A DNA stretch of 29,858 nucleotides, from IMG/VR virus record IMGVR_UViG_3300030388_001013, positions 1 through 29,858 of that record; one strand, 5' to 3'. Of this stretch, positions 6,151 to 28,658 are shown piece after piece. Source of the stretch: a virus. Below the pieces are notes generated by a model. It searched no databases, was not told where the DNA came from, and saw nothing but the letters and a program-made list of their open reading frames with translations. A program made the position numbers and the translations under genes. Within the stretch, counting starts at the first letter, position 1, and each line of letters starts with the position of its first letter.

Positions 6151-6180
6151 AAAAATAAAATTTAAAAACGTTATATAGTT
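6151..6180 (+). promoter_or_regulatory. Candidate phage late promoter, site 1
   Basis: CGTTATATA at 6169-6177 ends 3 nt before the ATG at 6181. AAAAAT at 6151-6156 stands exactly 12 nt upstream of the CGT, as at three other sites. The element resembles the CGT(T/C) -10 box of ECF sigma factors. Spacing predicts transcription starting at or beside the A of the ATG. Confidence 0.6.
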
Positions 6181-7032
6181 ATGAAAATAGTCGAATTATT
6201 TTTAGATGATAATGAAGAAAGCGGAATTGAAGCAATTAGTATAGTAGAATCACCTGCAATTGAAAGTGATTTTATTGCTTTAAAATCTGATGAAGTAAAA
6301 CTTGCAGAAGTTGACAAAGAAAAAAAGATACTAATGGGTGCTTTGTTAATTCCAAACAAGCCGATTTACCGAAAAACAGAAGGTGAAGAGTACTATATCT
6401 ATTTTTCAAAAGAAACTGTTTTAAAAGCCTCACAAAGGTACTTGATGAATGGCTATCAGGGCAATTCAACACTAGAACATTCTGATAATTTAGAAGGTTT
6501 GACATTGGTTGAAAGTTGGATAGTAGAAGATGAAGTTCAAGATAAATCAAGGAAGTATGGATTGAATGCCCCAGTGGGGACTTGGATGGGAACGATCAAA
6601 GTAAACAATGATGATGTTTGGAATGATTATGTAAAAACCGGAAAAGTAAAAGGATTTAGTATAGAAGGCTTTTTTGCCGATAAAATAGAAGCACAAAAAA
6701 TGAGTAAAGAAGAAAAAGAAGCAGAATTATTGCTAAGTAAAATCACAAACATTGTCAAAGGTGAAAGGGTTGAATTGGGTTTAATAGATGATTTAATGGT
6801 TAATTATAAAGCCTTAATAAAAGTTAAGGATATTATGGATGGGCATTTGTCAAAGGCAAAACAAGCAGCAATTAAAGGTGATAATGGTATAAAAAACTTT
6901 AATAAAAAATTTAAAGATATTGAAACTGCATCAAAACAATTAGGAATACCTGTTAAAGATGTAAATATCCAAAAATTAAATTCTGAAATAAAAGAATTTA
7001 CAAAAGATTTTAATAAAGTGATTAAATCATAA
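6181..7032 (+). CDS. Prohead maturation protease (XkdF-like)
   Basis: The 283-residue product has the XkdF-type protease pattern common in Bacteroidetes phages. The N-terminus is GIEAISIVESPAIE, followed by GALLIPNKPIYR and YYIYFSKETV. Next come NSTLEHSD with candidate catalytic His100, VESWIVED, PVGTWMGTIKV, and VKGFSIEGFF with candidate nucleophile Ser160. The Lys-rich C-terminal region after about residue 175 (coiled coil) may act as a scaffold segment released on maturation. Such enzymes cleave scaffold and capsid N-termini during head maturation. It sits 3 nt downstream of a candidate late promoter and before scaffold and capsid genes. Confidence 0.8.
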   Translation: MKIVELFLDDNEESGIEAISIVESPAIESDFIALKSDEVKLAEVDKEKKILMGALLIPNKPIYRKTEGEEYYIYFSKETVLKASQRYLMNGYQGNSTLEHSDNLEGLTLVESWIVEDEVQDKSRKYGLNAPVGTWMGTIKVNNDDVWNDYVKTGKVKGFSIEGFFADKIEAQKMSKEEKEAELLLSKITNIVKGERVELGLIDDLMVNYKALIKVKDIMDGHLSKAKQAAIKGDNGIKNFNKKFKDIETASKQLGIPVKDVNIQKLNSEIKEFTKDFNKVIKS

Positions 7033-7093
7033 ATACAAAAAAAGAAAGTAAACAATAACTAAAATATATTCAATATTTTAAAACACAAAAACA

Positions 7094-7528
7094 ATGAACA
7101 TACAAAACAATTTAAAAAACATACTAGACAAATTTCCCAAGAATAAAGTTGAATTAGAAAATCATAGGGTTGAATTAACATTTGTTCAAGACATTCAAAA
7201 ACTAATAAAAGAAATTGAAGATGTTATTGAACAAGCATATAAAGATGAAGATGAAATTAATGCGGAAATAAGAGAAGTTGAAATGGCAAAAGAATCTTTG
7301 TTAAGCCAAATTAAAGCATCTGAAAGTAATGCCCAAGCATTAAAAACTGAAACAAAAGCCGAAATAACAGATTTGAAAAGTAAAATGTCAAAAGCAGCAG
7401 GTGAATTAGGCATTGATATTAAAGATATTAAAGGGATGACTGAATTAGATGCTTTGGGAAAAGAAGCCCCCAAGGTTGGTGATTTTTTAAATGGACTAAT
7501 AAAGAGGGCTAAAAAAGAAGCTAAGTAA
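7094..7528 (+). CDS. Coiled-coil protein, candidate head scaffold
   Basis: A 144-residue, highly charged protein predicted to be almost entirely helical. Heptad-like Glu/Lys/Leu/Ile runs cover about residues 25-110, with a short C-terminal region (GDFLNGLIKRAKKEAK) rich in basic residues. There is no enzyme motif. Its size, composition and position right after the prohead protease and before capsid genes suggest a scaffolding or capsid-assembly role; this is inference only. It ends immediately before the next start, so translation is coupled. Confidence 0.6.
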   Translation: MNIQNNLKNILDKFPKNKVELENHRVELTFVQDIQKLIKEIEDVIEQAYKDEDEINAEIREVEMAKESLLSQIKASESNAQALKTETKAEITDLKSKMSKAAGELGIDIKDIKGMTELDALGKEAPKVGDFLNGLIKRAKKEAK

Positions 7529-7750
7529 ATGCAAGGCATAAACCGTGATAGCGTAATACCTAGTAGATCATCACCTAAATCAAATACTCGTGCTTGTTTG
7601 TGCGCCGATAAAGCGACATACTCAAGGGATTGTTGCGAAGGTGCTATGATGAATCAAGGCATTGGTAACGTTACAGGTAATTATGTGAACCTAGCACAAG
7701 AAGATGATAATTTAATTCTTCAAGAAGACTATTCAACAATTTATACATAA
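7529..7750 (+). CDS. Small cysteine-containing conserved phage protein
   Basis: A 73-residue protein starting directly after the previous stop. It contains a cysteine cluster in RACLCADKATYSRDCCEGAM (Cys23, Cys25, Cys35, Cys36), followed by MNQGIGNVTG. I recognise this CLC...CC...NQGIG pattern from small proteins in the head region of flavobacterial phages, where it has no known function. The cysteines could bind zinc or form disulphides. Its stop shares one base with the next start. Confidence 0.6.
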   Translation: MQGINRDSVIPSRSSPKSNTRACLCADKATYSRDCCEGAMMNQGIGNVTGNYVNLAQEDDNLILQEDYSTIYT

Positions 7751-8205
7751 TGGGAAATTTAAAAATAAGTGAATTACCAAATGCAACCGCATTAACAAAT
7801 GGCGAATTGTTGGTGGTTGTTCAAAGCAGTAGCACAAAACAATCAACGATTGGATCAATTAGTAATTACATAAATTCCATTTCATTGACCGTAGCAGCAG
7901 GGCAAACAGTTAACTTGTCAGACACTGCTTATTCTAGTTTAAGCCTCTTAAAATTGACGTATACGGCAGCAGGTGGTGCTGAGAACATGACTATGAACTT
8001 GCCCGATGCAACAACAAATGCAAACAGGTTAATTAGGTTTATTTCTGACACAACATTTACCACAAATACAAGGGTTAATTTAACTGCTATTAATTCACAG
8101 ACAATTGATGGTTCAACAGATGCCTATATAATCAACAAAGAATATGAAGGTATTCAGTTGTGGAGTGATGGAACAGAATGGTTCATAATTCAAAAGAAAA
8201 GTTAA
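7750..8205 (+). CDS. Virion-associated protein with ISELP-type N-terminus
   Basis: This 151-residue protein begins KISELPNATALTNGELLVVV, the short anchor motif found at the start of many Bacteroidetes phage structural and fibre proteins. The rest (residues 50-151) is beta-rich, with a Ser/Thr/Asn-rich core and a C-terminal WSDGTEWFIIQKKS typical of small beta-sandwich virion proteins. Its place among head genes suggests a head fibre or decoration protein. The precise role is unknown. Confidence 0.6.
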   Translation: MGNLKISELPNATALTNGELLVVVQSSSTKQSTIGSISNYINSISLTVAAGQTVNLSDTAYSSLSLLKLTYTAAGGAENMTMNLPDATTNANRLIRFISDTTFTTNTRVNLTAINSQTIDGSTDAYIINKEYEGIQLWSDGTEWFIIQKKS

Positions 8206-8211
8206 AAATGC

Positions 8212-8241
8212 AAAATTAATTTCAATAAACGTTATATAAAT
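8212..8241 (+). promoter_or_regulatory. Candidate phage late promoter, site 2
   Basis: CGTTATATA at 8230-8238 ends 3 nt before the ATG at 8242. AAAATT at 8212-8217 is exactly 12 nt upstream of the CGT. It would drive the scaffold-like, decoration and capsid genes. Confidence 0.6.
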
Positions 8242-8841
8242 ATGAAAGCAAATGATATGGTGAATCAAATCAAAACACTTCTAAACATCGAAGTGAAACT
8301 TGATGAGATGAAATTAGAAAATGGGACTGTTGTAGAAGCAGAATCATTTGAAAGCGGTAGAGAAATTTTCATTGTTACAGATGATGAAAGGGTTGCTTTG
8401 CCAGTTGGTGAATATATTCTTGAGGATTCAAGGCTTTTAGTTGTAGAAGAAGAAGGAATGATTTCCGATGTAAGGGAAGTTAGCGATGAAGTTCCGGAAG
8501 AAGAAGAAGAGACTGAAGAGACTGAAGATATGGCTGATGAAGGCAACTATGTTACCAAAGATTCATTTAGAGAAATGGAAGCTAAAATTCAAAATCTTGA
8601 AGATGCAATTGCAGATTTAAAATCTGACAAAGTAGAAGCATCTGATGATTCAAGTACTTTAAAGTCTAGAACAGTAAAGGAAGAATTTAGTGCTGAAAAA
8701 CTTTCATCTGAACCGGCTGCTGAAGCAATAAAACATAACCCGGAAGGGGAGACATTAAAAGAAATGAAATTTGTTTATTCTCCAAACAGAATAGAAAGTT
8801 CATTAGATAGAATTTTAAACAAAATAAATAACATAAAATGA
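8242..8841 (+). CDS. Acidic capsid-assembly/scaffold-like protein
   Basis: A 199-residue acidic protein. Residues 1-75 form a conserved small domain (LENGTVVEAESFESG, ALPVGEYILEDSRLLVV) common upstream of flavobacterial phage capsid genes. A strongly acidic stretch of Glu follows (about 75-100), then a coiled coil (FREMEAKIQNLEDAIADLKS) and a basic C-terminal tail with SLDRILNKINNIK. An acidic middle with a basic, helical C-terminus is what scaffolds often look like. It follows a candidate late promoter and overlaps the decoration-like gene by ATGA. Confidence 0.65.
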   Translation: MKANDMVNQIKTLLNIEVKLDEMKLENGTVVEAESFESGREIFIVTDDERVALPVGEYILEDSRLLVVEEEGMISDVREVSDEVPEEEEETEETEDMADEGNYVTKDSFREMEAKIQNLEDAIADLKSDKVEASDDSSTLKSRTVKEEFSAEKLSSEPAAEAIKHNPEGETLKEMKFVYSPNRIESSLDRILNKINNIK

Positions 8842-9257
8842 GTACAACAAGTAACACATCAAATGACATTGTATATGTACAAGCAACACAAGAGATTGTC
8901 ACCGGATCAGCAGCTATTCCTGCCGGATCAGCAGGTGTTGATCAAAACGTAGCAACAGATGCCCTAATAACTACTCTGCCAAAGATTGAAGCAGGTGATT
9001 TAGGGTTGACATACCTATTTAGAAATACAGGTGCAGATGGAAACAACACACTTACATTGTCTCCAAATGCAGCCGATGCAATTCATGGAACTATTGCCAA
9101 TGCTGCTGCTGATTCAGTAGCCGGTGGTGTAGTAGATAAAGATTTTATAAACACAAAAGCAACCGCAAACAAAGGTGATTATGTCGTTTTAAGGGCAGTA
9201 GCCTTAACTGAATGGTACATTATCGGTGGTGTAGGTATTTGGGCATCTGAAGCATAA
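8838..9257 (+). CDS. Head decoration-like protein
   Basis: The 139-residue protein directly upstream of the major capsid gene contains LGLTYLFRNTGADGNNTLTL and AVALTEWYIIGGVGIW. Both are recognisable in small proteins that precede capsid genes in Bacteroidetes phages. The composition is Ala/Gly/Thr-rich and beta-rich with no cysteines, fitting a capsid cement or decoration protein. The function is inferred from gene order and fold-like composition. It overlaps the previous stop as ATGA. Confidence 0.65.
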   Translation: MSTTSNTSNDIVYVQATQEIVTGSAAIPAGSAGVDQNVATDALITTLPKIEAGDLGLTYLFRNTGADGNNTLTLSPNAADAIHGTIANAAADSVAGGVVDKDFINTKATANKGDYVVLRAVALTEWYIIGGVGIWASEA

Positions 9258-9282
9258 TTAAAAATTTAAAAATATAAAAAAA

Positions 9283-10236
9283 ATGAATTTAAAAAACATA
9301 CAATTAGGTACAACTACCAACATTACTACTACTTATGCAGGTGAATTTGCAGGTGAATATATCGCTGCTGCTTTGCTTTCAGCAAGTACAATAAATGATG
9401 GTGGTGTAACCGTTAAGCCAAATATTTCTTTTAAAGAAGTAATCAAAAAATTAGATACAGGTTCATTGGTTCAAGATGCCACTTGTGATTTTAATCCTAA
9501 TTCTTCAGTTACTTTAACAGAAGTAATTTTGCAGCCGGATGAATTTAGCGTAAATTTACAACTTTGCAAGCAGGATTTTGTAAGTGATTGGGAAAGTCAA
9601 TCTATGGGGTATGGAATGGCACAAACACTTCCCCCTAAGTTTTCAGATTTTATGATTGCACATGTTGCTGCTGAAGTTGCACAAAAGACTGAAACCACAA
9701 TGTTTCAAGGATTCGCTGCAAACGTTGGTGAATTTAACGGATACGAAACACTTCTAGCAGGTGATGACACAGTTGTAGATGTTGCTGCCGTTGGTGGTGG
9801 TGTTGATGCTGCAAACGTAATCGCTCAATTGTCTAGGGTAGTGGATGCTATTCCTGCAGCACTTTACGGAAAAGAAGATTTATTTCTTTATGTACCTTCT
9901 AGTATTGCAAAGTTTTACGTCCAAGCATTGGGTGGATTTGCAGCAGCAGGTTTAGGTGCAAATGGTGTGAACAACATGGGTACACAATGGTGGAATAACG
10001 GAAGTTTGACTGTTAACGGAGTGAAGATTTTTGTTTCTCCGGGACTTGCTAATAACAAGATGATAGCAGCGACAAGAAGCAACTTGTTTTTTGGAACTGG
10101 TTTACTAAATAATTTACAAGAATTACGCATTATTGACATGTCAGAAATTGACGGAAGCCAAAATGTACGATTTGTAATGCGTTATACCGCAGGTGTAGCC
10201 GTGGGAATTGGTTCTGATGTTGTTTTTTATTCGTAA
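9283..10236 (+). CDS. Major capsid protein (HK97-fold type)
   Basis: A 317-residue protein with the features of the Bacteroidetes phage major capsid family. The N-terminus is MNLKNIQLGTTTNITTTYAG, followed by the FCEYIA-like region FAGEYIAAALLS, and LCKQDFVSDWESQSMG. A long central helix-rich part carries TETTMFQGF, then KEDLFLYVPSSIAKFY, VNGVKIFVSPGL and FVMRYTAGVAVG near the end. It would form the icosahedral head shell. Gene order (protease, scaffold, decoration, then this gene, followed by a strong terminator) supports the call. Direct similarity to a named phage cannot be tested here. Confidence 0.88.
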   Translation: MNLKNIQLGTTTNITTTYAGEFAGEYIAAALLSASTINDGGVTVKPNISFKEVIKKLDTGSLVQDATCDFNPNSSVTLTEVILQPDEFSVNLQLCKQDFVSDWESQSMGYGMAQTLPPKFSDFMIAHVAAEVAQKTETTMFQGFAANVGEFNGYETLLAGDDTVVDVAAVGGGVDAANVIAQLSRVVDAIPAALYGKEDLFLYVPSSIAKFYVQALGGFAAAGLGANGVNNMGTQWWNNGSLTVNGVKIFVSPGLANNKMIAATRSNLFFGTGLLNNLQELRIIDMSEIDGSQNVRFVMRYTAGVAVGIGSDVVFYS

Positions 10237-10255
10237 TAAATTTTAACCATAAACA

Positions 10256-10290
10256 AGGGGTAGGTGGAAATGTCTATCTACCCCTTTTTT
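10256..10290 (+). terminator. Strong intrinsic terminator after the capsid gene
   Basis: A 12-bp stem (10256-10267 with 10274-10285, two G-U pairs) around the loop AAATGT is followed by a run of T ending at 10290. It ends the capsid operon. The tail tube gene just downstream lacks its own late element, so partial read-through is likely. Confidence 0.9.
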
Positions 10291-10307
10291 ATTAAAACAA
10301 AAAAAAT

Positions 10308-10868: not shown

Positions 10869-10887
10869 TTAATTATTTTCTTTTAGC

Positions 10888-10921
10888 AAAAGCATCTCTT
10901 AAGAGGGGGTGCTTTTTTTTT
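10888..10921 (+). terminator. Intrinsic terminator after the tail tube gene
   Basis: AAAAGCATCTC pairs imperfectly (G-U pairs, one bulge) with GAGGGGGTGCTTTT across a TTAA loop, and the right arm runs into nine T. It marks the end of the tail tube transcription unit. Confidence 0.85.
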
Positions 10922-11123: not shown

Positions 11124-11126
11124 AAC

Positions 11127-11156
11127 AAAATCTATCTTTTTTTGCGTTATATAGGT
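11127..11156 (+). promoter_or_regulatory. Candidate phage late promoter, site 3
   Basis: CGTTATATA at 11145-11153 ends 3 nt before the ATG at 11157, and AAAATC at 11127-11132 is exactly 12 nt upstream of the CGT. It follows the tail tube terminator by about 220 bp, as expected for a new operon (portal operon). Confidence 0.62.
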
Positions 11157-11516
11157 ATGATTGTACTAACAACATCAGCAATTGCACAAACATTTAAGGT
11201 AATACCAAGGGATTATTCTTTAACCGCATTTACAATGAGTATAAGAGATGATAGCACAAATGTGACTGTGACATATAATATTACTGGTGCAAGTGTGTCA
11301 GGTAATTATGTTACTTATCAGAATATATTTTCACCCATTTTAGTTGAAAATCATTTTTATGACATGACGCTTTATGTGGGAACAAACATAATTTTTAAGG
11401 ATCGTATATTTTGCACTGATCAAACAATTAATCAAGTTAATAATGATTATTACAAATTAAATGAAGGGCAATTTACAACGGATGATTCTTACAACAATGA
11501 ATATATTGTAACATGA
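11157..11516 (+). CDS. Conserved head-neck region protein of unknown function
   Basis: I place the start at ATG 11157, 3 nt after the late-promoter element, giving 119 residues; an upstream TTG at 11142 lies inside the promoter. The N-terminus MIVLTTSAIAQTFKVIPRDY is a recognisable start of a short protein preceding the portal in Bacteroidetes phages. The rest is beta-rich (FTMSIRDDSTN, DRIFCTDQTINQ). No enzyme motif is seen. It overlaps the portal by ATGA, so it is probably a virion or assembly factor made together with the portal. Confidence 0.65.
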   Translation: MIVLTTSAIAQTFKVIPRDYSLTAFTMSIRDDSTNVTVTYNITGASVSGNYVTYQNIFSPILVENHFYDMTLYVGTNIIFKDRIFCTDQTINQVNNDYYKLNEGQFTTDDSYNNEYIVT

Positions 11517-13693
11517 AAAGAAACAATAAAAACTTACCCAAAGGTGTGACACAACAAGCAAATATTGGTGTGATTAATTTAAGCACATATACTTCACCGG
11601 AAGTAATTGAAGTAAAAAATAAAAGTTGGGTTGATTACGGTAGGGATAATAACTATTTTGGTTTTCTTATTGACCGTTTTATGGGATCACCTACAAATAA
11701 TGCAGCTATTAATGGAATAAGTTCTGCCATTTACGGTAAGGGATTAAACGCAACAAACGCAAATAGAAAACCTGATCAGTATGCTCAAATGGTTTCAATG
11801 TTTGGGAAGAATGTTGTAAGAAAATTGTGTTATGATCTTAAATTAATGGGTCAATGTGCAGCACAAATAATCTATTCTAAGGATAGGAAGAAGATTGTTA
11901 AAGTTGAACACTTTCCAATTGAAACTTTAAGGGCAGAAAAGGCAAATGAAAAGGGTGATATACCTGCTTATTACTATTTTAAAGATTGGGCAAACATTAA
12001 ACCATCAGATGAACCTTTGAGAATACCGGCATTTGGAATGTCAAAAGATAATATTGAAATTTTTTATATAAAGCCATACAAAGCAGGGTTCTACTATTAT
12101 AGTCCAGTTGACTATGCCGGAGGGATTCAATACTGTGAGGCTGAAGAGCAAGTAAGTAACTTTCATATAAACAACATTCGAAATAGTTTTAGTCCCAATA
12201 TGCTTATTAATATGAATAATGGGATTCCAAATCAAGAAGAACGGCAATTACTAGAAAGCAAAATAGCATCTAAGTTTTCGGGAACAAGTAACGCAGGTAA
12301 ATTTATCCTAAGTTTTAATGCAGATAAAGAATCTGCTGCTGATGTGACACCAATTCAATTAAGTGATGCACATAATACTTATCAATTCCTTTCTACTGAA
12401 GCTACACAAAAAATAATGGTATCACATCGCATTGTGTCGCCTATGCTTTTGGGTATTAAAGATAATAGCGGACTAGGAAATAATGCTGAAGAAATAAAAA
12501 CTGCAAGTCTTTTAATGGACAACACTGTAATCCGTCCATTTCAAGAACTTATGATTGATGCATTTGATGAAATACTAGCATATAATAATATTGCGTTAAA
12601 TCTGTATTTTGTCACCTTGCAACCTTTAGAATTTACAGAAGTTGACACAACAATACAAAGCCAAGAAGACGTTGAGGAAGAAACAGGTGTACAAATGTCT
12701 TTGAAAGCCTATCCTTGGGATAAGTGCATAAAAGAACAAACCGCAAAATACGGTGCAACGGCAGCCCCTAAAATTTGTGGGTACATTAAAGAAAACATGG
12801 GAATCAGTTTAAAAGAAATTGATGGAACTGTGGCTTTTGAAACCATAGAAGAAGCTGAAAAAATGGCTGAAATTATGGGTTGTGAGGGACACCATACACA
12901 CATGGAGGATGACAAAGAATGGTTTATGCCTTGTGAATCACATGATGAAGCTGTTGATCTTAAAAAGCCCTGTTATGATGGGTATGAAATGATAGGAATG
13001 AAAACCAAAAACGGTAAAAAAGTTCCTAATTGTGTACCTATAAAAGCAAGTGAAGAGACACCCGAATTAACAGATGAAATGGGTGATGAAATACTTGCTG
13101 AATTAGAAGGTGAAGTTATCACAGATGAGTGGGAACTAGTAGATGAAAGGGATGAAGGAGCAACTGAACCTATAGAAGAATGGGCATCAAAATTAATTAA
13201 ACCCAAAAGATCATTATTTAGAAAATTAGCTGATGAAATTCAAGACACAAGAACAGATGTTTTTAGTGTTTTGGATAAAGGATTATACAAAGTAAGATAT
13301 AAGTATATTAAAAAATCTAGAAAGCCAAACAAAACAGGAAACAAATCTAGAAAATTCTGTGAAAATATGATGGGATTAGCTAAGCAAGGAATCATATATA
13401 GAATTGAATCCATTGACAAGGCTAGTAATAAAGGTGTAAACAAGCAACTAGGACACAAAGGGAAGGCTTACAGCCTATTTAAATTCAAAGGTGGCATCTA
13501 TTGTAGACACGCATGGAAAGAGCAGTTATATAGGCTTAAAAAAGGTACAGAAAAAAGCGATAAACTAAAGGATTACAACAAAGTAAAAAGCGTTCCAAAA
13601 AGCTATAAGCCAAAACCCAAAGGATGGAAAGACGCAGCAATAGCACCGGTAAATATGCCAAATGAAGGAGCATATCCAACTAAAAAGAAATAG
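11513..13693 (+). CDS. Portal protein with long C-terminal extension
   Basis: A 726-residue protein. Residues 1 to about 385 match the flavobacterial portal pattern: KSWVDYGRDNNYFGFLIDRF, LKLMGQCAAQIIYSKD, VSHRIVSPMLLGIKD and a PFQELMIDAFDEIL helix. Portals form the dodecameric DNA channel. From about 395, extra domains follow. The first is PWDKCIKEQ...KICGYIKENM. The second is a His/Cys region with GCEGHHTHMEDD and KPCYDGYEMIGMKTKNGKK, then a conserved Cys in VPNCVPI. An acidic linker follows, then a basic domain (about 580-726) with FKFKGGIYCRHAWKEQLY. These parts are usually seen in neighbouring head proteins, so this is probably a fusion with a minor head protein. Confidence 0.85.
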   Translation: MKRNNKNLPKGVTQQANIGVINLSTYTSPEVIEVKNKSWVDYGRDNNYFGFLIDRFMGSPTNNAAINGISSAIYGKGLNATNANRKPDQYAQMVSMFGKNVVRKLCYDLKLMGQCAAQIIYSKDRKKIVKVEHFPIETLRAEKANEKGDIPAYYYFKDWANIKPSDEPLRIPAFGMSKDNIEIFYIKPYKAGFYYYSPVDYAGGIQYCEAEEQVSNFHINNIRNSFSPNMLINMNNGIPNQEERQLLESKIASKFSGTSNAGKFILSFNADKESAADVTPIQLSDAHNTYQFLSTEATQKIMVSHRIVSPMLLGIKDNSGLGNNAEEIKTASLLMDNTVIRPFQELMIDAFDEILAYNNIALNLYFVTLQPLEFTEVDTTIQSQEDVEEETGVQMSLKAYPWDKCIKEQTAKYGATAAPKICGYIKENMGISLKEIDGTVAFETIEEAEKMAEIMGCEGHHTHMEDDKEWFMPCESHDEAVDLKKPCYDGYEMIGMKTKNGKKVPNCVPIKASEETPELTDEMGDEILAELEGEVITDEWELVDERDEGATEPIEEWASKLIKPKRSLFRKLADEIQDTRTDVFSVLDKGLYKVRYKYIKKSRKPNKTGNKSRKFCENMMGLAKQGIIYRIESIDKASNKGVNKQLGHKGKAYSLFKFKGGIYCRHAWKEQLYRLKKGTEKSDKLKDYNKVKSVPKSYKPKPKGWKDAAIAPVNMPNEGAYPTKKK

Positions 13694-18309: not shown

Positions 18310-18699
18310 ATGAAGAAACTAACTAGGAGTAAATTAATCAAAAAATTAGACAGTGTATTTAGCCAATACATTAGAAGAAAAGATTCCTATGATGACATAG
18401 CAAAATGTATCACTTGTGGGGTGGAAAGACATTGGAAAGAACTTCAATGTGGACACTTTCAAAGTCGAAGACACTATTCAACGCGGTGGGAAGTACTCAA
18501 TGTAGGGGTGCAATGTATTTCATGTAACTTATTCCAACATGGGCAGCAGTACCTTTTCAGCAAATACTTAGATAAAACCTATGGTGAAGGCACATCAAAT
18601 GAATTGTTTTTAAAATCAAAAATACTAGGAAAATTTACCACAAAGGAAATTGAAGAAATGATTGATAAATATAAAAATTTGTTAGATCAGTTAGATTGA
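18310..18699 (+). CDS. ninG: NinG/Rap-like recombination nuclease
   Basis: The 129-residue protein matches the core of the lambda NinG (Rap) family. LIKKLDSVFSQYIRRKDS is followed by the zinc-type site CITCG (Cys33, Cys36), LQCGHFQSRRHYSTRWEVLN (Cys47, His49) and VQCISCNLFQHG (Cys69, Cys72). NinG-type proteins resolve or process branched DNA intermediates, which fits the annealing protein encoded nearby. It is shorter than lambda NinG (about 200 residues), lacking its N-terminal extension. A host-type promoter lies across its 3' end. Confidence 0.82.
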   Translation: MKKLTRSKLIKKLDSVFSQYIRRKDSYDDIAKCITCGVERHWKELQCGHFQSRRHYSTRWEVLNVGVQCISCNLFQHGQQYLFSKYLDKTYGEGTSNELFLKSKILGKFTTKEIEEMIDKYKNLLDQLD

Positions 18700-18708
18700 T
18701 TATATTTG
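18678..18708 (+). promoter_or_regulatory. Host-type Bacteroidetes promoter
   Basis: TTTG (18678-18681), exactly 19 nt, then TATATTTG (18701-18708) is a full match to the Bacteroidetes housekeeping consensus TTTG-N19-TAnnTTTG. Transcription would begin near 18715. It lies over the end of the ninG-like gene and points into a stretch with no start codon before a terminator. Confidence 0.8.
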
Positions 18709-18763: not shown

Positions 18764-18774
18764 TATCTGTTTAA

Positions 18775-18804
18775 AGGGGAAAATTAATTTTTTCCTCTTT
18801 TTTT
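18775..18804 (+). terminator. Intrinsic terminator downstream of ninG-like gene
   Basis: A 9-bp stem (18775-18783 with 18790-18798, one G-U pair) is followed by a run of seven T to 18804. It separates the ninG-like gene and the candidate small RNA from the next gene. Confidence 0.8.
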
Positions 18805-18837: not shown

Positions 18838-18845
18838 TATCTTTG
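18838..18845 (+). promoter_or_regulatory. Bacteroidetes -7 element TATCTTTG
   Basis: TATCTTTG fits the -7 consensus TAnnTTTG and lies 22 nt before the ATG at 18868, after the terminator. A matching -33 TTTG at 19 nt is not evident, so strength is uncertain. Confidence 0.6.
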
Positions 18846-18867: not shown

Positions 18868-19086
18868 ATGTCAAATTTAACAAAAGAGCAAAGAATAACT
18901 ATTTCACGTCAACAAAAGGAAAAAAGAGATAAGATTTTTGCTGAAAGCATGAAATATTATATGGAAAATTTAACGCCCTTGGAAACAATTGAGGAAATAA
19001 TGGGTGCAGGTTGGACTGATCATGAAAAGTTAATTTTTTTTAAACAAATTGCTTCTAATCGTTCGATTAAATTTAAAAATAAATAA
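18868..19086 (+). CDS. Small early protein of unknown function
   Basis: A 72-residue, basic, helical protein (MSNLTKEQRITISRQQKEKR, later TPLETIEEIMGAGWTDHEKL). I do not recognise a family. It has its own host-type -7 element, the A-rich leader AACAAACAAAAACAAAATG shared with the gene at 27641, and a G/C-tract hairpin right after it. It is therefore probably a single-gene early unit, perhaps acting on the host. Confidence 0.6.
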   Translation: MSNLTKEQRITISRQQKEKRDKIFAESMKYYMENLTPLETIEEIMGAGWTDHEKLIFFKQIASNRSIKFKNK

Positions 19087-20615: not shown

Positions 20616-21425
20616 ATGACAGATATTGAACTACAATTGGCGGAAACCTTTTGCAAAATTGACAACACCAAAGAAATAGAATATCCACCAATTGCTTTAT
20701 CCATAGGTACTAAAGTTATTAGTACTAAAAAGGGGAATGAAGTAGTTGATATTCCAATTGGAACTTATGGTAATTTCTCATTTATACAAGCACCCCCAAA
20801 AAGCCGAAAAAGTTACTTTGTAAGTTTGCTAGTTTCAGCTTATTTAAGACATAATAACTTTGTAGGTAAAATAAAAAGCCATAGAAATAATGAGCAAGTA
20901 CTTCATTTTGATACAGAGCAAGGACACTGGCACAGTGCAAGAAGTTTTAAAAGGGTAATTGATATGTGTGGCACATCAGATGGGTATCACACTTTTGCTT
21001 TGCGTACGCTTAACTATTCTCAGCGAATGGAATTTATTGAATATTGCTTTATGAAAAACAAAAAAATAGGAATTTGCGTAATAGATGGAATAGCCGATTT
21101 AGTAAGTGATGCAAATAATATTGAACAAAGTAATGATTGTGTTCAAAAATTGATGAAGTGGAGTACAGATTTTAAATGTCACATTATTACTGTGATTCAT
21201 AGCAATTTTGGAACTGACAAACCTACCGGGCATTTAGGATCTTTTTTGGAAAAGAAAGCAGAAACCCAAATATCACTTGAAAAGAACACAGTGCATTCAG
21301 ATCAAACAATTGTAAACTGCAAAAGAAGCCGGGGTTTTCCTTTTGAAAATTTATCATTTAAAATTAATACCTTTGGTTACCCCGAAATAATAGAAAATCT
21401 TTATGATCCCCTCGAAGGCACTTGA
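20616..21425 (+). CDS. RecA/DnaB-fold replication ATPase (RepA-like)
   Basis: A 269-residue ATPase of the kind found in Bacteroidetes phages and mobile elements. The P-loop is unusual: APPKSRKSYF (residues 59-68), keeping Lys65-Ser66 but lacking the usual glycines. The domain continues with VLHFDTEQGHW, ICVIDGIADLV (Walker B, Asp157), VIHSN and TGHLGSFLEKKAET. RepA-like members act as hexameric helicases or helicase loaders. With no DnaB or polymerase in the genome, this is the main replication candidate. The sigma-like gene overlaps its 3' end by 23 nt. Confidence 0.75.
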   Translation: MTDIELQLAETFCKIDNTKEIEYPPIALSIGTKVISTKKGNEVVDIPIGTYGNFSFIQAPPKSRKSYFVSLLVSAYLRHNNFVGKIKSHRNNEQVLHFDTEQGHWHSARSFKRVIDMCGTSDGYHTFALRTLNYSQRMEFIEYCFMKNKKIGICVIDGIADLVSDANNIEQSNDCVQKLMKWSTDFKCHIITVIHSNFGTDKPTGHLGSFLEKKAETQISLEKNTVHSDQTIVNCKRSRGFPFENLSFKINTFGYPEIIENLYDPLEGT

Positions 21426-21882
21426 AAAAATATTTAAAAAGAACACTCAATGGATTGATATTGTCAAATCTTTTGGGTGTAATCGTGACACATCACAAGA
21501 TATTGTTCAAGAAATGTATTTTAAGGTTCAGAAACGATTAGAAAAAGGTACAGACATTCAATATAGTGAAGATGATATAAACTACTACTACATTTTTAAA
21601 GTGCTTAGATCGCTTTTTTTAGACTTAAAAAGAAAAGAATCAAAAGTTAAAATAGTTGAATTGGGAGAAATTGAAAATTGTGAATTAGATATTAATTATG
21701 AAGATGCGTATGAAGCAGTAACTGAAGAAATAAACACCTTGTTTTGGTATGATCGGAAAGTATACGAAATAATTGATAATGGTAAATCTATTTCTGAACT
21801 TTCGAGACAAACAAATATTTCTTACTACTCACTATATAACACGTACAAAAAAGTTAAAAACAAGTTAAAGCATTTGTTATGA
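21403..21882 (+). CDS. Phage sigma factor-like protein (ECF-like, sigma2-sigma4)
   Basis: This 159-residue protein has two sigma-type parts. Residues about 15-80 resemble region 2 (DTSQDIVQEMYFKV, then YYIFKVLRSLFLDLKRKES). Residues about 110-157 resemble region 4, with a helix-turn-helix (GKSISELSRQTNISYYSLYN, then TYKKVKNKLKHLL). There is no region 1.1 or 3, as in ECF factors. I infer that it directs host RNA polymerase to the CGTTATATA elements before late genes. A structural or DNA-binding role without sigma activity remains possible. It starts inside the ATPase gene and overlaps the next start by 4 nt. Confidence 0.7.
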   Translation: MIPSKALEKIFKKNTQWIDIVKSFGCNRDTSQDIVQEMYFKVQKRLEKGTDIQYSEDDINYYYIFKVLRSLFLDLKRKESKVKIVELGEIENCELDINYEDAYEAVTEEINTLFWYDRKVYEIIDNGKSISELSRQTNISYYSLYNTYKKVKNKLKHLL

Positions 21883-24420: not shown

Positions 24421-24514
24421 AAAAATAGTAGGCACTTTGTTAATACTTATAGCAAGTGTATTTATTTTAATAATTGGTAATTTTATAGACTTGCACAAAC
24501 CAAAACAATTTTGA
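24407..24514 (+). CDS. Mini membrane protein (35 residues)
   Basis: The ORF encodes a short basic start (MQKAKK) followed by one hydrophobic segment (GTLLILIASVFILIIGNF) and a short polar tail. The reading is compact and framed by overlaps. It may be a small membrane toxin-like or host-modifying protein. Position in the early region makes it unlikely to be the main holin. Confidence 0.45.
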   Translation: MQKAKKIVGTLLILIASVFILIIGNFIDLHKPKQF

Positions 24515-24600
24515 TTTCAATAGTAGACGTATCAACATTAATTATTCTATTATATATTGTTGCGGTTATAAGTGATATTAAAAATAAACTAAAAAAATAA
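24511..24600 (+). CDS. Possible mini membrane protein with TTG start
   Basis: A 29-residue reading frame from TTG 24511, overlapping the previous stop, with one hydrophobic segment (VSTLIILLYIVAVIS) and a Lys-rich end. The unusual start and short length make it doubtful. The tandem arrangement with another single-pass peptide is its main support. Confidence 0.3.
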   Translation: MISIVDVSTLIILLYIVAVISDIKNKLKK

Positions 24601-24620
24601 TTAAACTTTAATATAATTTT

Positions 24621-24731
24621 ATGCCGGAATTAATTTGGGGGTGTTCCCTCTGCGGATCGTATAATAATATTAAAAATGATATTTGCGGAAAGTGTAAGAA
24701 AAAAAAGGAAATAACAGATATAAAAAGATGA
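24621..24731 (+). CDS. Tiny zinc-finger-like protein
   Basis: A 36-residue ORF with two cysteine pairs (GCSLCGSYNN and DICGKCKKKK; C-x2-C...C-x2-C), a minimal zinc ribbon, ending in a basic stretch. It overlaps the next start (ATGA). It is one of several tiny cysteine-pair proteins in this early region. Function is unknown. Confidence 0.6.
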   Translation: MPELIWGCSLCGSYNNIKNDICGKCKKKKEITDIKR

Positions 24732-24919
24732 CAGAAAATGAAAAAAATGCTAGTGATAAAGCGCAGCAATTAATAAGTAGACACATTAGCGAATGCGGCA
24801 TAGATGAAGATTCTGCAAAGAAGGCTAGTTTGATCCTCATAGATGAATTATTTAAGTGGGGTTTACCTTACACCTATCAAATAGAATTTTGGACTGAAGT
24901 AAAAAGATATTTAAAATGA
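24728..24919 (+). CDS. Small conserved phage protein
   Basis: A 63-residue helical protein (ASLILIDELFKWGLPYTYQI, then EFWTEVKRYLK). Small proteins with an LIxIDE...FWxxVK pattern recur in Bacteroidetes phages near replication genes. Function is unknown. It is coupled to its neighbours by ATGA overlaps at both ends. Confidence 0.6.
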   Translation: MTENEKNASDKAQQLISRHISECGIDEDSAKKASLILIDELFKWGLPYTYQIEFWTEVKRYLK

Positions 24920-25287
24920 CGGCACAAGAAATAAGTGACAGAATAGTAAAGAAAACAGGGGTGAATGTTTTTGAAGATAGTAGGAAAAAAGAAGTGATTC
25001 ATTACAGATCATTACTAATCTACCTACTAAGGGAAAAAATGAATCTTAGATGGATGAACATTGCACTGTTTTTTAAAGCAAATAATAAAAGCATAACACA
25101 CGCAACAGTTATACACTCACATCATTACTATGAAATTTATAAGGATGAAAATCCCAAACTGGAGGAATTAGAAAAACAGTTTAACTTTACCCCGGTAGAC
25201 CTTGACACACTAGATAAAATTCATATGCTAGAAAATAAAGTAAAAAACCTTAGAAAAAGAATCAAACAATATGAAAAATTTAATTAG
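24916..25287 (+). CDS. DnaA domain IV-like DNA-binding protein
   Basis: This 123-residue protein resembles the DNA-binding domain IV of DnaA. HYRSLLIYLLREKMNLRWMN is followed by the signature region IALFFKANNKSITHATVIHS (about residues 49-68), like the DnaA FG-RDHSTVIHA motif. The AAA+ part is absent. A helical C-terminus (LENKVKNLRKRIKQYEKF) may dimerise. It may bind DnaA-box-like sites to start replication or regulate transcription. No clear cluster of DnaA boxes was recognised by eye. Confidence 0.65.
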   Translation: MTAQEISDRIVKKTGVNVFEDSRKKEVIHYRSLLIYLLREKMNLRWMNIALFFKANNKSITHATVIHSHHYYEIYKDENPKLEELEKQFNFTPVDLDTLDKIHMLENKVKNLRKRIKQYEKFN

Positions 25288-25441
25288 TTCAGTAAAAAAA
25301 TCATTAAGGAATTTGTTCACAGAAGATGATCCCACAAAAATATGGGTTCAGATACCTAGGACTTTTAAAACAAAAAAAGATCAAAATTATATGATCAGAA
25401 GAACAAAGGATTTTATTGTAGAAAACACAGAAGTTGGATGA
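25271..25441 (+). CDS. Small protein before the methyltransferase
   Basis: A 56-residue basic protein (MKNLISSVKKSLRNLFTEDD, then PTKIWVQIPRTFKTKK and NYMIRRTKDFIVE) overlapping the DnaA-like gene by 17 nt and the methyltransferase by 4 nt. No family is recognised. The overlap structure supports translation. Confidence 0.5.
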   Translation: MKNLISSVKKSLRNLFTEDDPTKIWVQIPRTFKTKKDQNYMIRRTKDFIVENTEVG

Positions 25442-26070
25442 TTACCAATGAAGACAACATGGATTTAATGGTTAGGTATAAAGACAATCATTTTGACTTG
25501 GCTATTGTTGATCCTCCTTATGGAAGCAATGATGCCATAGGTTTAAAAGATAATCTTTCTAAAAATAAACAAGCAACAAAAAGAACTAATTACAATGTTT
25601 TTAAAAATGTATCACCATCAATTAAATACTTTAAAGAATTAAAAAGGGTTAGCAAGAATCAAATTATTTGGGGTGTAAATTTTTATAAAAACTTTGATTT
25701 GAGTGGTGGAAGGTTGTGTTGGGATAAAAAAGGGACTGCATTTGGAAGGGCGGAACTTGCTTATTTATCTATGACAAAAAGCGTAAATGTTTGTGAAATA
25801 ATATGGAACGGTATGATTCAGCACGACATGAAAAATAAAGAATTAAGAATACACCCAACACAAAAACCAGTGAAACTTTATGAATGGCTTTTAATGAATT
25901 ACGCAAAAGAAGGAGACACAATATTAGACACTCATTTAGGAAGTGGATCAATTGCTATTGCTTGTCATAACTTAAAATATGATTTAACTGCTTGTGAACT
26001 TGACACAGAATATTATGAAAAAGCAATGGAAAGAATTAATAATCATAAGCGACAAATAAGAATGTTTTAA
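25438..26070 (+). CDS. DNA methyltransferase (N6-adenine or N4-cytosine type)
   Basis: A 210-residue enzyme with motif IV AIVDPPYGSN (DPPY, residues 25-28) near the N-terminus and motif I near the C-terminus (ILDTHLGSGSIAIAC, about 162-176). HPTQKPVKLYEWLL precedes motif I. This circular order is the beta class. It would modify adenine (or N4-cytosine) in phage DNA, likely to resist host restriction. No matching restriction enzyme is present in the window. The compact size suggests a recognition region between the motifs. Confidence 0.85.
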   Translation: MITNEDNMDLMVRYKDNHFDLAIVDPPYGSNDAIGLKDNLSKNKQATKRTNYNVFKNVSPSIKYFKELKRVSKNQIIWGVNFYKNFDLSGGRLCWDKKGTAFGRAELAYLSMTKSVNVCEIIWNGMIQHDMKNKELRIHPTQKPVKLYEWLLMNYAKEGDTILDTHLGSGSIAIACHNLKYDLTACELDTEYYEKAMERINNHKRQIRMF

Positions 26071-26073
26071 TGA

Positions 26074-26105
26074 CGTTATATAAATTGAATAAACAAAAAT
26101 AAATC
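26074..26105 (+). promoter_or_regulatory. Candidate phage late promoter, site 4, with leader
   Basis: CGTTATATA at 26074-26082 lies in front of the terminase genes, but here the ATG (26106) is 23 nt farther on. The bases after the element read AAT-TGA where site 2 reads AAT-ATG-A, a one-base difference. The upstream A-rich box is shifted by about 2-3 nt relative to the other sites (AAAT at 26054-26057). It fits a promoter with an A-rich leader. Confidence 0.5.
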
Positions 26106-26375
26106 ATGGATGGAAGAAAACAAAATGGAGGGGTAAGGGAAGGAGCAGGAAGACCAAAGAAAGCTGATGAAGAAAAGCTAATTGAAAAGCTAGATGCTTT
26201 AATAGATAGTGATAAGGTGGTAATGAAGCTGGGTGAAATGTGTATGAAGGGTGACACAAGAGCATTGACATTATACTTCAATTACAGATATGGTAAGCCA
26301 AAAGAGAAAATTGATATTTCAGCAAGTGAAGGTTTAAATGTGAACTTTAAGGACTTGATTCAATTTAGTGATTAA
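26106..26375 (+). CDS. terS: Terminase small subunit
   Basis: The 89-residue protein begins with a Gly/Arg-rich GVREGAGRPKKADE typical of small terminase subunits of Bacteroidetes phages. A helical part follows with TRALTLYFNYRYGKPKEKID. It recognises the packaging start on phage DNA. Directly downstream the large terminase begins with GTG inside its last codons. The gene is shorter than many terS proteins but consistent with this family. Confidence 0.75.
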   Translation: MDGRKQNGGVREGAGRPKKADEEKLIEKLDALIDSDKVVMKLGEMCMKGDTRALTLYFNYRYGKPKEKIDISASEGLNVNFKDLIQFSD

Positions 26376-27576
26376 AGTTAACCCGAAGTATTCACCAATT
26401 TCAAAGGCTGATTCTAGGTATTTCATTGTAACAGGTGGAAGGGGTAGTGGTAAATCCTTTTCTATTAATTTGATGTTGTGCCTTTTAACCTATGAGAAAG
26501 GACACGTTATCTTGTTTAGTAGGTACACCTTAACATCTGCTTATGTTTCTATCATTCCGGAATTTATAGAAAAGCTAGAACTGCTAAATATCTTTGATCA
26601 TTTCCAAATCACAAAGGATGAGATTCAAAACAAAATATCCGGCAGCAAGATTATCTTCAAAGGAATTAAAACATCATCGGGTGATCAAACTGCAAATCTA
26701 AAATCATTGCAGGGGGTTACAACCTTTGTATTGGATGAGGCTGAAGAACTAACAAGTGAAGACACATTTGACAAAATAGATTTATCTGTTAGATCACAAA
26801 GCCAAACCAACAGGATTATCTTAATCTTAAACCCAACCACAAAAGAACACTGGATTTACCAAAGGTTCTTTCAAGATAAAGGAATGCAAGAAAGTTTAAA
26901 TACTAGTAAAGATGATGTGACATACATTCACACAACATACCTTGATAATATTCAAAACCTTTCAGAAAGTTACCTGTCCCAAATACAGAACATTAGGGTA
27001 AGGAGACCCAGCAAATACAAGCATCAAATTCTTGGGGGTTGGTTGGATAAAGCAGAGGGTGTGATTTTTGATAACTGGAAAATAGGTGAATTTAAAAAGG
27101 TAGGTGTTTCAGTGTTTGGACAAGATTACGGTTTTGCCTCAGATGAATCTACGTTAATTGAAACCAACATTGATACAACAAATAAAATAATCTATCTAAG
27201 GGAATGTTTTTATATCAAACATCTAACCACATCACAGATAGGAGAACTTAACTTAAAACACGCAGGAAATGCCTTGATAATAGGGGATAGTGCAGAACCT
27301 AGATTAATAAATGAACTAAAATCTAAGGGGAGTAATATTATATCAGCAATTAAAGGACAAGGTTCTATTACCTACGGAATATCCTTGATTCAAGATTATG
27401 ATTTAATTGTATCTGAAGATTCTGTTAATCTAATAAAAGAACTAAATAATTATTGTTGGTTAGAACGTAAATCAAAAACACCACAAGATAAATTCAATCA
27501 CCTTCTTGATGGACTTAGGTATGCGGTTACCTATCAACTACAGAACCCAAATAGGGGAACATATATGATTAGTTAG
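26368..27576 (+). CDS. terL: Terminase large subunit (packaging ATPase/nuclease)
   Basis: A 402-residue protein starting at GTG 26368 (overlap 8 nt). The ATPase part has Walker A GGRGSGKS (residues 23-30), Walker B FVLDEAEEL (Asp123, Glu124) and motif III-like ILILNPTTKEHW. The nuclease part shows FGQDYGFASDES (Asp253), IIGDSAEPR (Asp307) and a C-terminal HLLDGLRYAV with the last Asp. It pumps DNA into the prohead and cuts it. Length and motifs match phage TerL of the PBSX type. Confidence 0.93.
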   Translation: MIKVNPKYSPISKADSRYFIVTGGRGSGKSFSINLMLCLLTYEKGHVILFSRYTLTSAYVSIIPEFIEKLELLNIFDHFQITKDEIQNKISGSKIIFKGIKTSSGDQTANLKSLQGVTTFVLDEAEELTSEDTFDKIDLSVRSQSQTNRIILILNPTTKEHWIYQRFFQDKGMQESLNTSKDDVTYIHTTYLDNIQNLSESYLSQIQNIRVRRPSKYKHQILGGWLDKAEGVIFDNWKIGEFKKVGVSVFGQDYGFASDESTLIETNIDTTNKIIYLRECFYIKHLTTSQIGELNLKHAGNALIIGDSAEPRLINELKSKGSNIISAIKGQGSITYGISLIQDYDLIVSEDSVNLIKELNNYCWLERKSKTPQDKFNHLLDGLRYAVTYQLQNPNRGTYMIS

Positions 27577-27583
27577 TGAACTT

Positions 27584-27613
27584 TTTGTTTTATAAGTTTA
27601 TTGGTGTATCTTG
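27584..27613 (+). promoter_or_regulatory. Host-type Bacteroidetes promoter
   Basis: TTTG (27584-27587), a 19-nt spacer and TATCTTG (27607-27613) fit the housekeeping pattern with one T missing from the -7 box. It directs the small gene at 27641. Confidence 0.65.
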
Positions 27614-27640
27614 CATATAAGATTAACAAACAAAAACAAA

Positions 27641-27886
27641 ATGGAAAATTTTATTCAAAAAATAGCAGTTAGTATTTCTGAAATTAAAAAAGGAGGAACA
27701 GATTCTGATACAGAAAAACAACTTTCAAATTTATGGGAAAATGTGTGTAGATATAAACGAGCATCAGAGGCTATTAGGGTTGGATATAGCCATACTGAAG
27801 AAACAGTAAAAAAATCTAAGACTGAAATTAGTAGGTTGTCAGATGCTAGTTATGATAAAATGATTAATTCAATAATAATACAATAA
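27641..27886 (+). CDS. Small helical early-type protein
   Basis: The start is ATG 27641, after a host-type promoter and the leader AACAAACAAAAACAAAATG, identical to that at 18852-18870. The 81-residue product is helical and mixed-charge (MENFIQKIAVSISEIKKGGT, then KQLSNLWENVCRYKRASEAI). No family is recognised. Its control differs from the late genes around it: host-type promoter plus own terminator. Confidence 0.6.
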   Translation: MENFIQKIAVSISEIKKGGTDSDTEKQLSNLWENVCRYKRASEAIRVGYSHTEETVKKSKTEISRLSDASYDKMINSIIIQ

Positions 27887-27894
27887 ATTAAACA

Positions 27895-27918
27895 GGGGGG
27901 TAATTCCCCCTTTTTTTT
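27895..27918 (+). terminator. Intrinsic terminator, G-tract type
   Basis: GGGGG (27896-27900) pairs with CCCCC (27906-27910) around TAATT, followed by eight T. It closes the unit of the gene at 27641. Confidence 0.88.
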
Positions 27919-27951
27919 AAATTTAATTTTATATATTTAACCGCAGATAAA

Positions 27952-28290
27952 ATGGAAACAATGAAACCTTTATTTACAGATATAGAACTGAAAGAAATTA
28001 TTCACGATATAGATATTGCCTATATAGATATGATGGATTCAGAAGTGCACAGGCAAGAAGTAAATTGGTTTGTTCATGATCTTGAAATATTTGCTAGTGT
28101 GTTGTGTATTCGGGAAACGCTTAGTGAACCGTACGAAACATACGACCATCAAGAACCGGGAACATACAGGTATTTGTTTGAAATTGATGATTGTTGTGCT
28201 TACTTTAATGATGAAGAATGTATCACAAATCATCAACTTGAGAATATAATAGTACCGGTTTTAGAAGTTAAAATACACCCACATGGATAA
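27952..28290 (+). CDS. Acidic protein of unknown function
   Basis: A 112-residue acidic protein (FTDIELKEIIHDIDIAYIDM, then VHDLEIFASVLCIRETL and YRYLFEIDDCCAYFNDEEC). ATG 27952 and ATG 27961 are both possible starts. A TATATTTA near-match to the host -7 box lies at 27932-27939. No family is recognised. Cys-Cys and Cys residues near 83-92 may be structural. It overlaps the next gene by 8 nt. Confidence 0.55.
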   Translation: METMKPLFTDIELKEIIHDIDIAYIDMMDSEVHRQEVNWFVHDLEIFASVLCIRETLSEPYETYDHQEPGTYRYLFEIDDCCAYFNDEECITNHQLENIIVPVLEVKIHPHG

Positions 28291-28567
28291 AATACAAAAT
28301 ACACACGATGCTGAATATTGGAACAATGCACACCTTTGTTCTAGTATTCTTAGGGGATGGCATAAGATCAAACCCAACAATGAAGAAATAACATCAGTAA
28401 TGACTGCTCTTCAAGAAATGACCTTTTATGTGGCACGTTTAAAGCACGATGCACAAGCAAAGGATAAGATAGTTGAAGAGTACAAATTAGAAAGGAACAA
28501 GTGGTGCATGAGGGCGCAACAGGCAGAGCGTAGATTTGATAACGCAGAGAAGTTAATAGATATTTAA
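28283..28567 (+). CDS. Helical protein of unknown function
   Basis: A 94-residue protein with a long helical C-terminal half (DAQAKDKIVEEYKLERNKWC, then MRAQQAERRFDNAEKLIDI). I do not recognise a family. It lies just before a strong terminator that separates it from the tail chaperone operon. A coiled-coil structural or regulatory role is possible but unsupported. Confidence 0.55.
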   Translation: MDKIQNTHDAEYWNNAHLCSSILRGWHKIKPNNEEITSVMTALQEMTFYVARLKHDAQAKDKIVEEYKLERNKWCMRAQQAERRFDNAEKLIDI

Positions 28568-28593
28568 AATATTTGTTTAGTTGGTTAGTTATG

Positions 28594-28621
28594 GGGTAGT
28601 CAAAATGGCTACCCTTTTTTT
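28594..28621 (+). terminator. Intrinsic terminator before the tail chaperone operon
   Basis: GGGTAGT (28594-28600) pairs with GCTACCC (28608-28614), one T-G pair, loop CAAAATG, then seven T to 28621. Confidence 0.88.
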
Positions 28622-28628
28622 GTGTTTA

Positions 28629-28658
28629 AAAATCCCTTCTATTTTGCGTTATATATTT
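28629..28658 (+). promoter_or_regulatory. Candidate phage late promoter, site 5
   Basis: CGTTATATA at 28647-28655 ends 3 nt before the ATG at 28659. AAAATC at 28629-28634 is exactly 12 nt upstream of the CGT, as at site 3. It immediately follows a terminator, as expected for a new operon start. Confidence 0.65.

Follow-up and report, generated by a model that had tools for sequence, protein, structure and literature searches.

A promoter-like element fused to start codons of late genes, and the phage-encoded ECF-like sigma factor that probably reads it, in a mainly environmental phage group

The element and the genes behind it

We analysed a stretch of viral DNA of 29,858 nucleotides (nt), hereafter the window, which is IMG/VR record IMGVR_UViG_3300030388_001013, positions 1-29,858. 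It carries five exact copies of a nonamer, CGTTATATA (the box), at 6169, 8230, 11145, 26074 and 28647, all on the + strand, each forming part of a predicted late promoter, as well as a small gene for a sigma factor resembling those of the extracytoplasmic function (ECF) type. The features are as follows, with scores from the weight matrix described below.

6152..6177, + strand: predicted late promoter 1; A-tract 6152-6154, CGTTATATA 6169-6177; protease ATG at 6181; matrix score 27.6
8213..8238, + strand: predicted late promoter 2; A-tract 8213-8215, CGTTATATA 8230-8238; scaffold-like ATG at 8242; score 23.2
11128..11153, + strand: predicted late promoter 3; A-tract 11128-11130, CGTTATATA 11145-11153; ATG at 11157, portal gene from 11513; score 23.1
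26057..26082, + strand: predicted late promoter 4, weaker; CGTTATATA 26074-26082, preceded by TAA instead of an A-tract; terS ATG at 26106; score 10.6
28630..28655, + strand: predicted late promoter 5; A-tract 28630-28632, CGTTATATA 28647-28655; tail-chaperone-like ATG at 28659; score 19.2
21403..21882, + strand: ECF-like sigma factor gene, 159 amino acids (aa); sigma2 at about residues 1-84 and sigma4 at about 97-159, from TIGR02937 and from model and fold matches

An exact search bears out the five positions and the coding-strand orientation reported in an earlier note on this DNA. The 100 dinucleotide shuffles of the window that served as chance baseline held 0.22 copies on average and 2 at most, and none reached five; with one mismatch allowed, the nonamer alone was not enriched (12 seen vs 8.3 expected, with 15 of 100 shuffles as high). 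When the window was scored with a weight matrix built on 78 sites, all from other phages, the top five + strand scores fell on exactly the five boxes, the next score being 5.1, while the best reverse-strand site reached 10.3 and in 20 simulated windows the maximum ranged from 5.7 to 18.0. Four boxes exceed these simulated maxima, and the terS box is not distinct by score alone. On the shuffles and the matrix from other phages, we have set aside a chance origin of the boxes.

Four of the five boxes have the form CGTTATATA-NNT-ATG-A, in which the C of the box lies 12 nt ahead of the A of the start codon (ATGs at 6181, 8242, 11157 and 28659), and the box at 26074 lies 32 nt upstream of the terS ATG. 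The earlier note, right on the box positions, had overlooked this fusion to the ATG. It had also described a hexamer, AAAA(A/T)(T/C), ending 12 nt upstream of the C of the box; this is present at four sites and missing at 26074, and an A-tract lying 15-17 nt ahead of the C is a better description of the -35 part. Genes within the operons, such as the portal gene at 11513, have no box, and a terminator-like hairpin (28593-28615) stands just upstream of promoter 5. The genes headed by the boxes are, as the note had said, protease, scaffold-like, portal, terminase and tail-chaperone-like genes.

6181..7032, + strand: protease gene behind promoter 1; product matches the PHROG head maturation protease, E 8e-11
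8242..8841, + strand: scaffold-like gene behind promoter 2; product matches phrog_24921 in its second half, the first half of that family being matched by the protease; 'scaffold' is a putative name
11157..11516, + strand: small gene at the head of the portal operon, behind promoter 3, recognised as an open reading frame (ORF) with its site; product without a PHROG match
11513..13693, + strand: portal gene; PHROG portal, E 6e-101
26106..26375, + strand: putative terS gene behind promoter 4; matches phrog_38011 (unknown function), E 4e-10, with terL next to it; named from place and sequence
26368..27576, + strand: terL gene; PHROG terminase large subunit, E 2e-43
28659..29315, + strand: tail-chaperone-like gene under promoter 5; phrog_32199 (unknown function), E 1e-15; named from the earlier note and its place

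A bipartite element in related phages

A motif search of IMG/VR with the pattern CGTTATATANNTATGA returned at least 120 stretches, and a scrambled pattern provided a control of 120 loci with 1562 ORF starts. In 28 records that carry the sigma gene (the window plus 27 relatives, many of the 28 fetched by the motif), CGTTA stands exactly at -12 from the first ATG at 79 of 1321 ORF starts, with 10 at the next offset, and no offset rises above 4 in the scrambled-pattern loci. We aligned 90 distinct sites from 34 records (97 before deduplication), chosen for CGTTA at -12 and an ATG, so that the 100% conservation of these two parts is a product of the selection. At positions that were not selected, A is found at -29 to -27 in 93, 87 and 84% of the sites, T at -1 in 93%, and the TATA after CGTTA-T in 91 (T), 86 (A), 70 (T) and 77% (A). 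The element of the relatives is bipartite, consisting of an A-tract, 14 nt, CGTTATATA and NNT-ATG. The T at -1 was present in 80 of 89 ORFs with the motif vs 389 of 901 other ORFs (at least 100 aa). Most proteins encoded downstream of the 90 sites (75) match the window's protease (25), chaperone-like protein (22), 11157 product (18) or scaffold-like protein (10), six match other window proteins and nine match none. De novo counts of 7-mers in 19 records placed a CGTT box in the top five in eight (the window, P12024S, G106, G009, G008, G021, G022 and G024, where labels beginning with G denote our records) and not in the other 11. Besides, a scan of genome contigs for prophage or cellular relatives gave, among the matches listed, one weak locus, L387, which shows little.

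The fixed distance between box and ATG at most sites, the conserved T at -1 and the A after the ATG could also be expected if the box were a translation-initiation context replacing a Shine-Dalgarno sequence. We examined this on 112 exact CGTTATATA copies in 30 records, 60 of which have an in-frame ATG 12 nt on. In the collapsed set, an A-tract (at least two of three A, 15-17 nt before the C) accompanies 56 of 58 copies whose ATG is at 12 and 16 of 18 whose ATG is at 13-16. It also accompanies 23 of the 24 remaining same-strand copies (20 of 21 once three coding coincidences are removed) and one of six opposite-strand copies. Strict AAA is found in 45 of 58, 10 of 18, 11 of 24 and none of six, respectively, and in 47 of 1255 cases before CGTT[CG], a background that is not matched for A-rich intergenic regions. 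Since the A-tract is kept when the ATG moves, the element looks like a promoter rather than a ribosome signal; the terS boxes, 32-42 nt from their ATG, and the genes inside operons that lack a box, such as the portal gene, also speak against a translation signal. We have set that explanation aside, as the A-tract persists without an ATG at 12 nt, and regard it as very unlikely.

The coding coincidences concern four CGTTATATA copies (G004 4962, G005 9997, G019 1368 and G020 15111, in motif-strand record coordinates) that happen to be spelled by the SLYN codons of sigma region 4. Lying inside the sigma gene's own YYSLYNTY codons, they were set aside as promoters, being probably coincidental; they were left out of the count of T-A steps given below and kept in the 112 copies, and three were kept in the A-tract count.

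The position of the ATG also suggests where transcription may begin. A T-A step at positions 11/12 occurs in 51 of the 52 collapsed sites whose ATG is at 12 and in only nine of 14 sites whose ATG is at 13-16, and a start at position 12 appears plausible from these sequences. Promoters of phages 7-11 and phiEco32 have their starts 6-9 bp from the element (PMC8948821), a distance that here points to the ATG or its neighbourhood. As the C of the box lies 12 nt before the ATG, transcription would therefore start at or near the start codon and give a leaderless mRNA.

Boxes at the terS position are followed, right after the predicted start, by a palindromic or near-palindromic leader (TTGATTAATCAA or ATTGAATAAACAAT), at 26083-26105 in the window. 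Similar leaders occur in G002 (6493), G004 (9738), G007 (27539), G011 (12198), G012 (6928), G019 (6333), G020 (18729), G034 (23572) and G045 (108), again in motif-strand record coordinates, where terS downstream is assumed from position in each relative. The palindrome is perhaps an operator or a packaging site.

The ECF-like sigma factor and its probable coupling to the box

The sigma gene (21403-21882) overlaps the end of an AAA gene (20616-21425). The earlier note had proposed a small sigma-like protein with sigma2 and sigma4, and the structure model (mean predicted local distance difference test score, pLDDT, 87.4) contains both folds. Its first PDB matches are ECF sigma factors; in alignments of the model, sigma4 matches region 4 of E. 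coli sigmaE on -35 DNA (Z 9.8, root mean square deviation (rmsd) 1.6 over 63 residues) and sigma2 matches region 2 on -10 DNA (Z 8.5, rmsd 2.6 over 78). ECF sigma factors have only sigma2 and sigma4, joined by a linker of fewer than 50 residues, and the linker of the model is about 12 residues long. Their promoters carry AAC at -35 and CGT at -10; CGT is present here, and the -35 part is an A-tract (CAAAA in the window type, AAAAC in P12024). Pfam Sigma70_r2 matched the window sigma at 0.03 and reached 0.01 or below in 15 of 34 aligned members of the family. Several phage ECF-type sigma factors are among the viral matches, for example that of Cronobacter phage GAP52 (E 9e-3), which has been discussed alongside that of phage 7-11 (PMC8948821). 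A co-transcribed anti-sigma factor and positive autoregulation are hallmarks of the ECF sigma factors studied early (PMC8103513). No anti-sigma factor was recognised by Pfam among the tested neighbours of the sigma gene, which gave only weak AAA and DUF4420 matches, and the matrix found no box in the window scoring near the five ahead of the gene at 21403.

Co-occurrence of the motif with homologues of the sigma gene, which the earlier note had proposed to check, was evident: a homologue was found in 20 of the 25 motif-found records of at least 18 kb, all of which were searched, vs none of 42 records in the scrambled-motif control. TIGR02937 contributed a divergent sigma in G009 and a match in the 341-kb record G018, and no sigma was found in motif-found G001, which matches none of 14 tabulated window proteins, G014 (18.5 kb) or G017 (20.5 kb). 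We also picked 80 loci by the sigma alone, without the motif. Among their 1209 distinct starts, CGTTA stands at -12 in 24 vs 0.7 expected, all 24 on the sigma strand, in 24 of the 80 loci and in 20 of the 45 of at least 10 kb; exact CGTTATATANNNATG occurs 41 times on the sigma strand and never on the other. The motif with at most one mismatch is present in 24 of 26 larger sigma records (61 matches vs 10 for the reversed pattern). Within the clade of window-type sigma factors, CGTTA is found at -12 in 28 of 28 records, many of which had been fetched by the motif, and in eight of eight among those fetched by sigma alone.

The cultured Nonlabens phages P12024S and P12024L have a sigma that is about 27% identical to that of the window and annotated with Sigma-70 region 2. 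They lack CGTTATATA; P12024S has six starts with CGTTA at -12, most of them with AAAACAAA upstream. When the P12024S portal served as bait (80 loci with 1116 starts, duplicates kept), the commonest pentamers at -12 were CGTTT (42 vs 1.2 expected) and CGTTA (39 vs 0.9 expected). On the sigma tree, the CGTTA label needs three changes vs a shuffled mean of 7.4, a figure that includes many motif-fetched rows and several very long branches, and for these two features we have set the tree aside as independent proof of coupling.

Considering these results, we regard it as probable that the window encodes an ECF-like late sigma factor together with its promoters, four of which are fused to the ATG with leaderless mRNAs predicted. 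The earlier proposal of a phage late promoter read by the phage's own sigma is supported by the co-occurrence, by the model with sigma2 and sigma4, by the bipartite element and by its retention in a phage with a sigma of about 27% identity. Several observations nevertheless weigh against it. TIGR02937 matches the protein over residues 6-158 with 25.1 bits (E 1.1e-5), below the curated cut-off of 42.9 bits that distant relatives in G098 and G107 pass, and we therefore call it ECF-like and assign it to no ECF group; the predicted template modelling score (pTM) of 0.49 leaves the relative placing of sigma2 and sigma4 unsure. Five of the 20 sigma hits cannot be counted as fully independent of the sigma model, being its four row donors (G004, G005, G008 and G023) and the near-identical G016, 99% like the window. 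The earlier note had taken absence of the motif in relatives that keep the sigma gene as evidence to the contrary, and here the outcome is mixed: the window-type clade has the box throughout, and among 11 records with sigma factors outside it three have CGTTA, three CGTTT and five neither at -12. Two portal relatives with distant sigma factors, G102 and G103 (loci L472 and L478), may use other boxes: in G102, GTTTTAAAATAAA with a short leader seems to be used (seven GTTTTAA vs 0.64 expected, further upstream), and G103 has TTGTTATATAATAG before two ATGs (TTGTTATATAATAG-ATG). No box was recognised in G095, G096 and G107, which have a distant sigma. Among 17 large portal-bait records (G099 being judged on its locus only), the box stands at -12 in five of 11 with a sigma and in four of six without, so that this sample gives no association by presence alone. 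The four boxed records without a sigma are contigs of 18-20 kb, whose examined loci contain genes for tail, head and fibre or lysis, with no hit to the recombination, replication or terminase genes sought; since only late genes are found there, the missing sigma, which may lie outside, says little. Another portal-bait record, G094, contains some early genes and lacks both sigma and box.

The distant relatives that have a sigma and no box would also fit a promoter read by a host ECF sigma or another phage regulator, with the phage sigma acting elsewhere or not at all, and Bacteroidetes hosts have ECF sigma factors of their own. The contrast of 20 of 25 vs none of 42 records, the excess at -12 in sigma-chosen loci (24 of 1209 starts vs 0.7) and the box variants found in phages with diverged sigma factors argue against a host or other reader, which we consider unlikely. 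The sigma and the box might also travel together through a single phage lineage, with no functional link. The portal, protease and capsid are common to most sigma-bearing records, a further point against the phage sigma as reader, so that common descent explains part of the co-occurrence, and the portal-bait sample would agree with descent as the whole cause. However, the terL genes of the sigma records are of clearly different types (E near 1e-200 vs 1e-30), and the form of the element is kept across these types and with a sigma of about 27% identity; a bipartite CGTT element beside a sigma2/sigma4 gene also fits known ECF promoters (PMC8103513). Shared lineage as the entire explanation thus seems distinctly unlikely. 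RAP44 (89 starts) and 47.6 kb of BS-TP2 (113 starts), which are related by terL and gave no sigma match, show no box at -12, but they differ in further genes as well.

Genome context, comparison with known systems and implications

The two ends of the window repeat each other (1-522 vs 29337-29858) at 95.4% identity with 22 mismatches, which represents either the overlapping ends of a circular genome, assembled from two strain variants, or a terminal repeat that has diverged. Given this repeat, the genome is probably circular or circularly permuted, in which case the operon from 28659 would continue into the tail genes at the window start. The 123-aa protein encoded at 24916-25287 resembles the C-terminal DNA-binding domain of DnaA (Pfam E 3.4e-6, below the cut-off) and is perhaps an origin binder. 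Among 50,697 phage records, relatives by portal, capsid and chaperone-like gene were only P12024S and P12024L, plus a 41-residue stretch in a Synechococcus phage, and we infer a flavobacterial host from these Nonlabens phages.

The proposal that early genes are transcribed from TTTG-N19-TAnnTTTG fared less well. Exact copies stand at 18678-18708 (+) and 26094-26124 (-), two vs 0.54 expected, and 12 of 100 shuffles did as well. The latter copy is on the strand opposite to the genes, and a terminator-like hairpin (18773-18800), 65 nt after the former, lies between it and the early ORFs; a host-type promoter at 18678 was set aside. Before the ATG at 18868 there is a better-placed lone TATCTTTG (18838-18845), but this octamer occurs 19 times on the + strand of the window and 32 times on the other. 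The claim is weak, and we do not regard an early promoter as identified.

A late sigma factor with its promoters is of a kind already known from phages phiEco32 and 7-11, and what is new here is the fusion of promoter and start codon. The sigma of phage 7-11, SaPh711_gp47, is small, has a region-4-like part, works with the host core polymerase and reads bipartite late promoters, GTAAtg-16-aCTA (PMC8948821). The window phage likewise combines a small sigma with bipartite promoters before late genes, but differs in the box sequences and the hosts, and the fusion to the ATG is a feature of the window group that we did not see described for 7-11. A tblastn search with the window sigma against the phage collection (E up to 1) gave no match beyond the Nonlabens phages. 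In phiEco32, gp36 reads a single element, tAATGTAtA, with no -35 part and has no region 4 homology, and the phage also has a regulator, gp79 (PMC8948821); the likeness is that of a phage sigma switching the host polymerase to later (middle or late) genes. E. coli sigmaE-type ECF sigma factors share with ours sigma2 and sigma4, a short linker, CGT in the -10 part and an A-tract in the -35 part (PMC8103513), whereas the window sigma differs from bacterial ECFs in being encoded by a phage, with no anti-sigma recognised nearby and no box before its own gene. P12024S and P12024L have homologous portal, capsid, chaperone-like, terL and sigma genes, and AAAACAAA with CGTTA 12 nt before the ATG, but their box is CGTTAATA or CGTTACTA in place of CGTTATATA and their genome is larger. 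No description of the motif, or of sigma-dependent late promoters in any phage of flavobacteria, was found among the matches listed in open-licence PMC papers.

We propose that a 159-residue ECF-like sigma, consisting of sigma2 and sigma4 only, would be made from the non-structural region, join the host core RNA polymerase and direct it to the five AAA-N14-CGTTATATA promoters heading the head, tail and packaging operons, so that the late genes would be switched on once the sigma is present. At four promoters, transcription would start at or within 1-2 bases of the start codon and produce leaderless mRNAs, and the terS mRNA would keep a leader of about 20 nt. Of this scheme, the analysis shows the element with its two conserved parts and fixed spacing, the genes behind it, the co-occurrence with the sigma gene and the predicted fold, and from these we infer the binding of the sigma to the element, the late timing and the start points.

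In Flavobacterium johnsoniae, leaders are longer than 10 nt in 87% of predicted transcripts with a probable promoter (PMC6847099). On balance we lean slightly towards the broader view that this aquatic phage group, known almost only from environmental sequence, has fused a sigma-specific late promoter to the start codon and so makes leaderless head and tail mRNAs in probable flavobacteria, hosts in which most mRNAs carry a leader and no Shine-Dalgarno sequence, and that sigma and box (CGTTATATA, CGTTAATA, CGTTT) have drifted together as matched pairs. Overall, a small unannotated gene of a common and hardly cultured phage group becomes a testable late-gene switch, and the box a sequence marker for the group's late operons. 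If the starts map to the ATG, these phages would test the use of leaderless mRNA by Bacteroidetes ribosomes, and matched pairs of sigma and promoter variants could be used as separate expression parts in Bacteroidetes.

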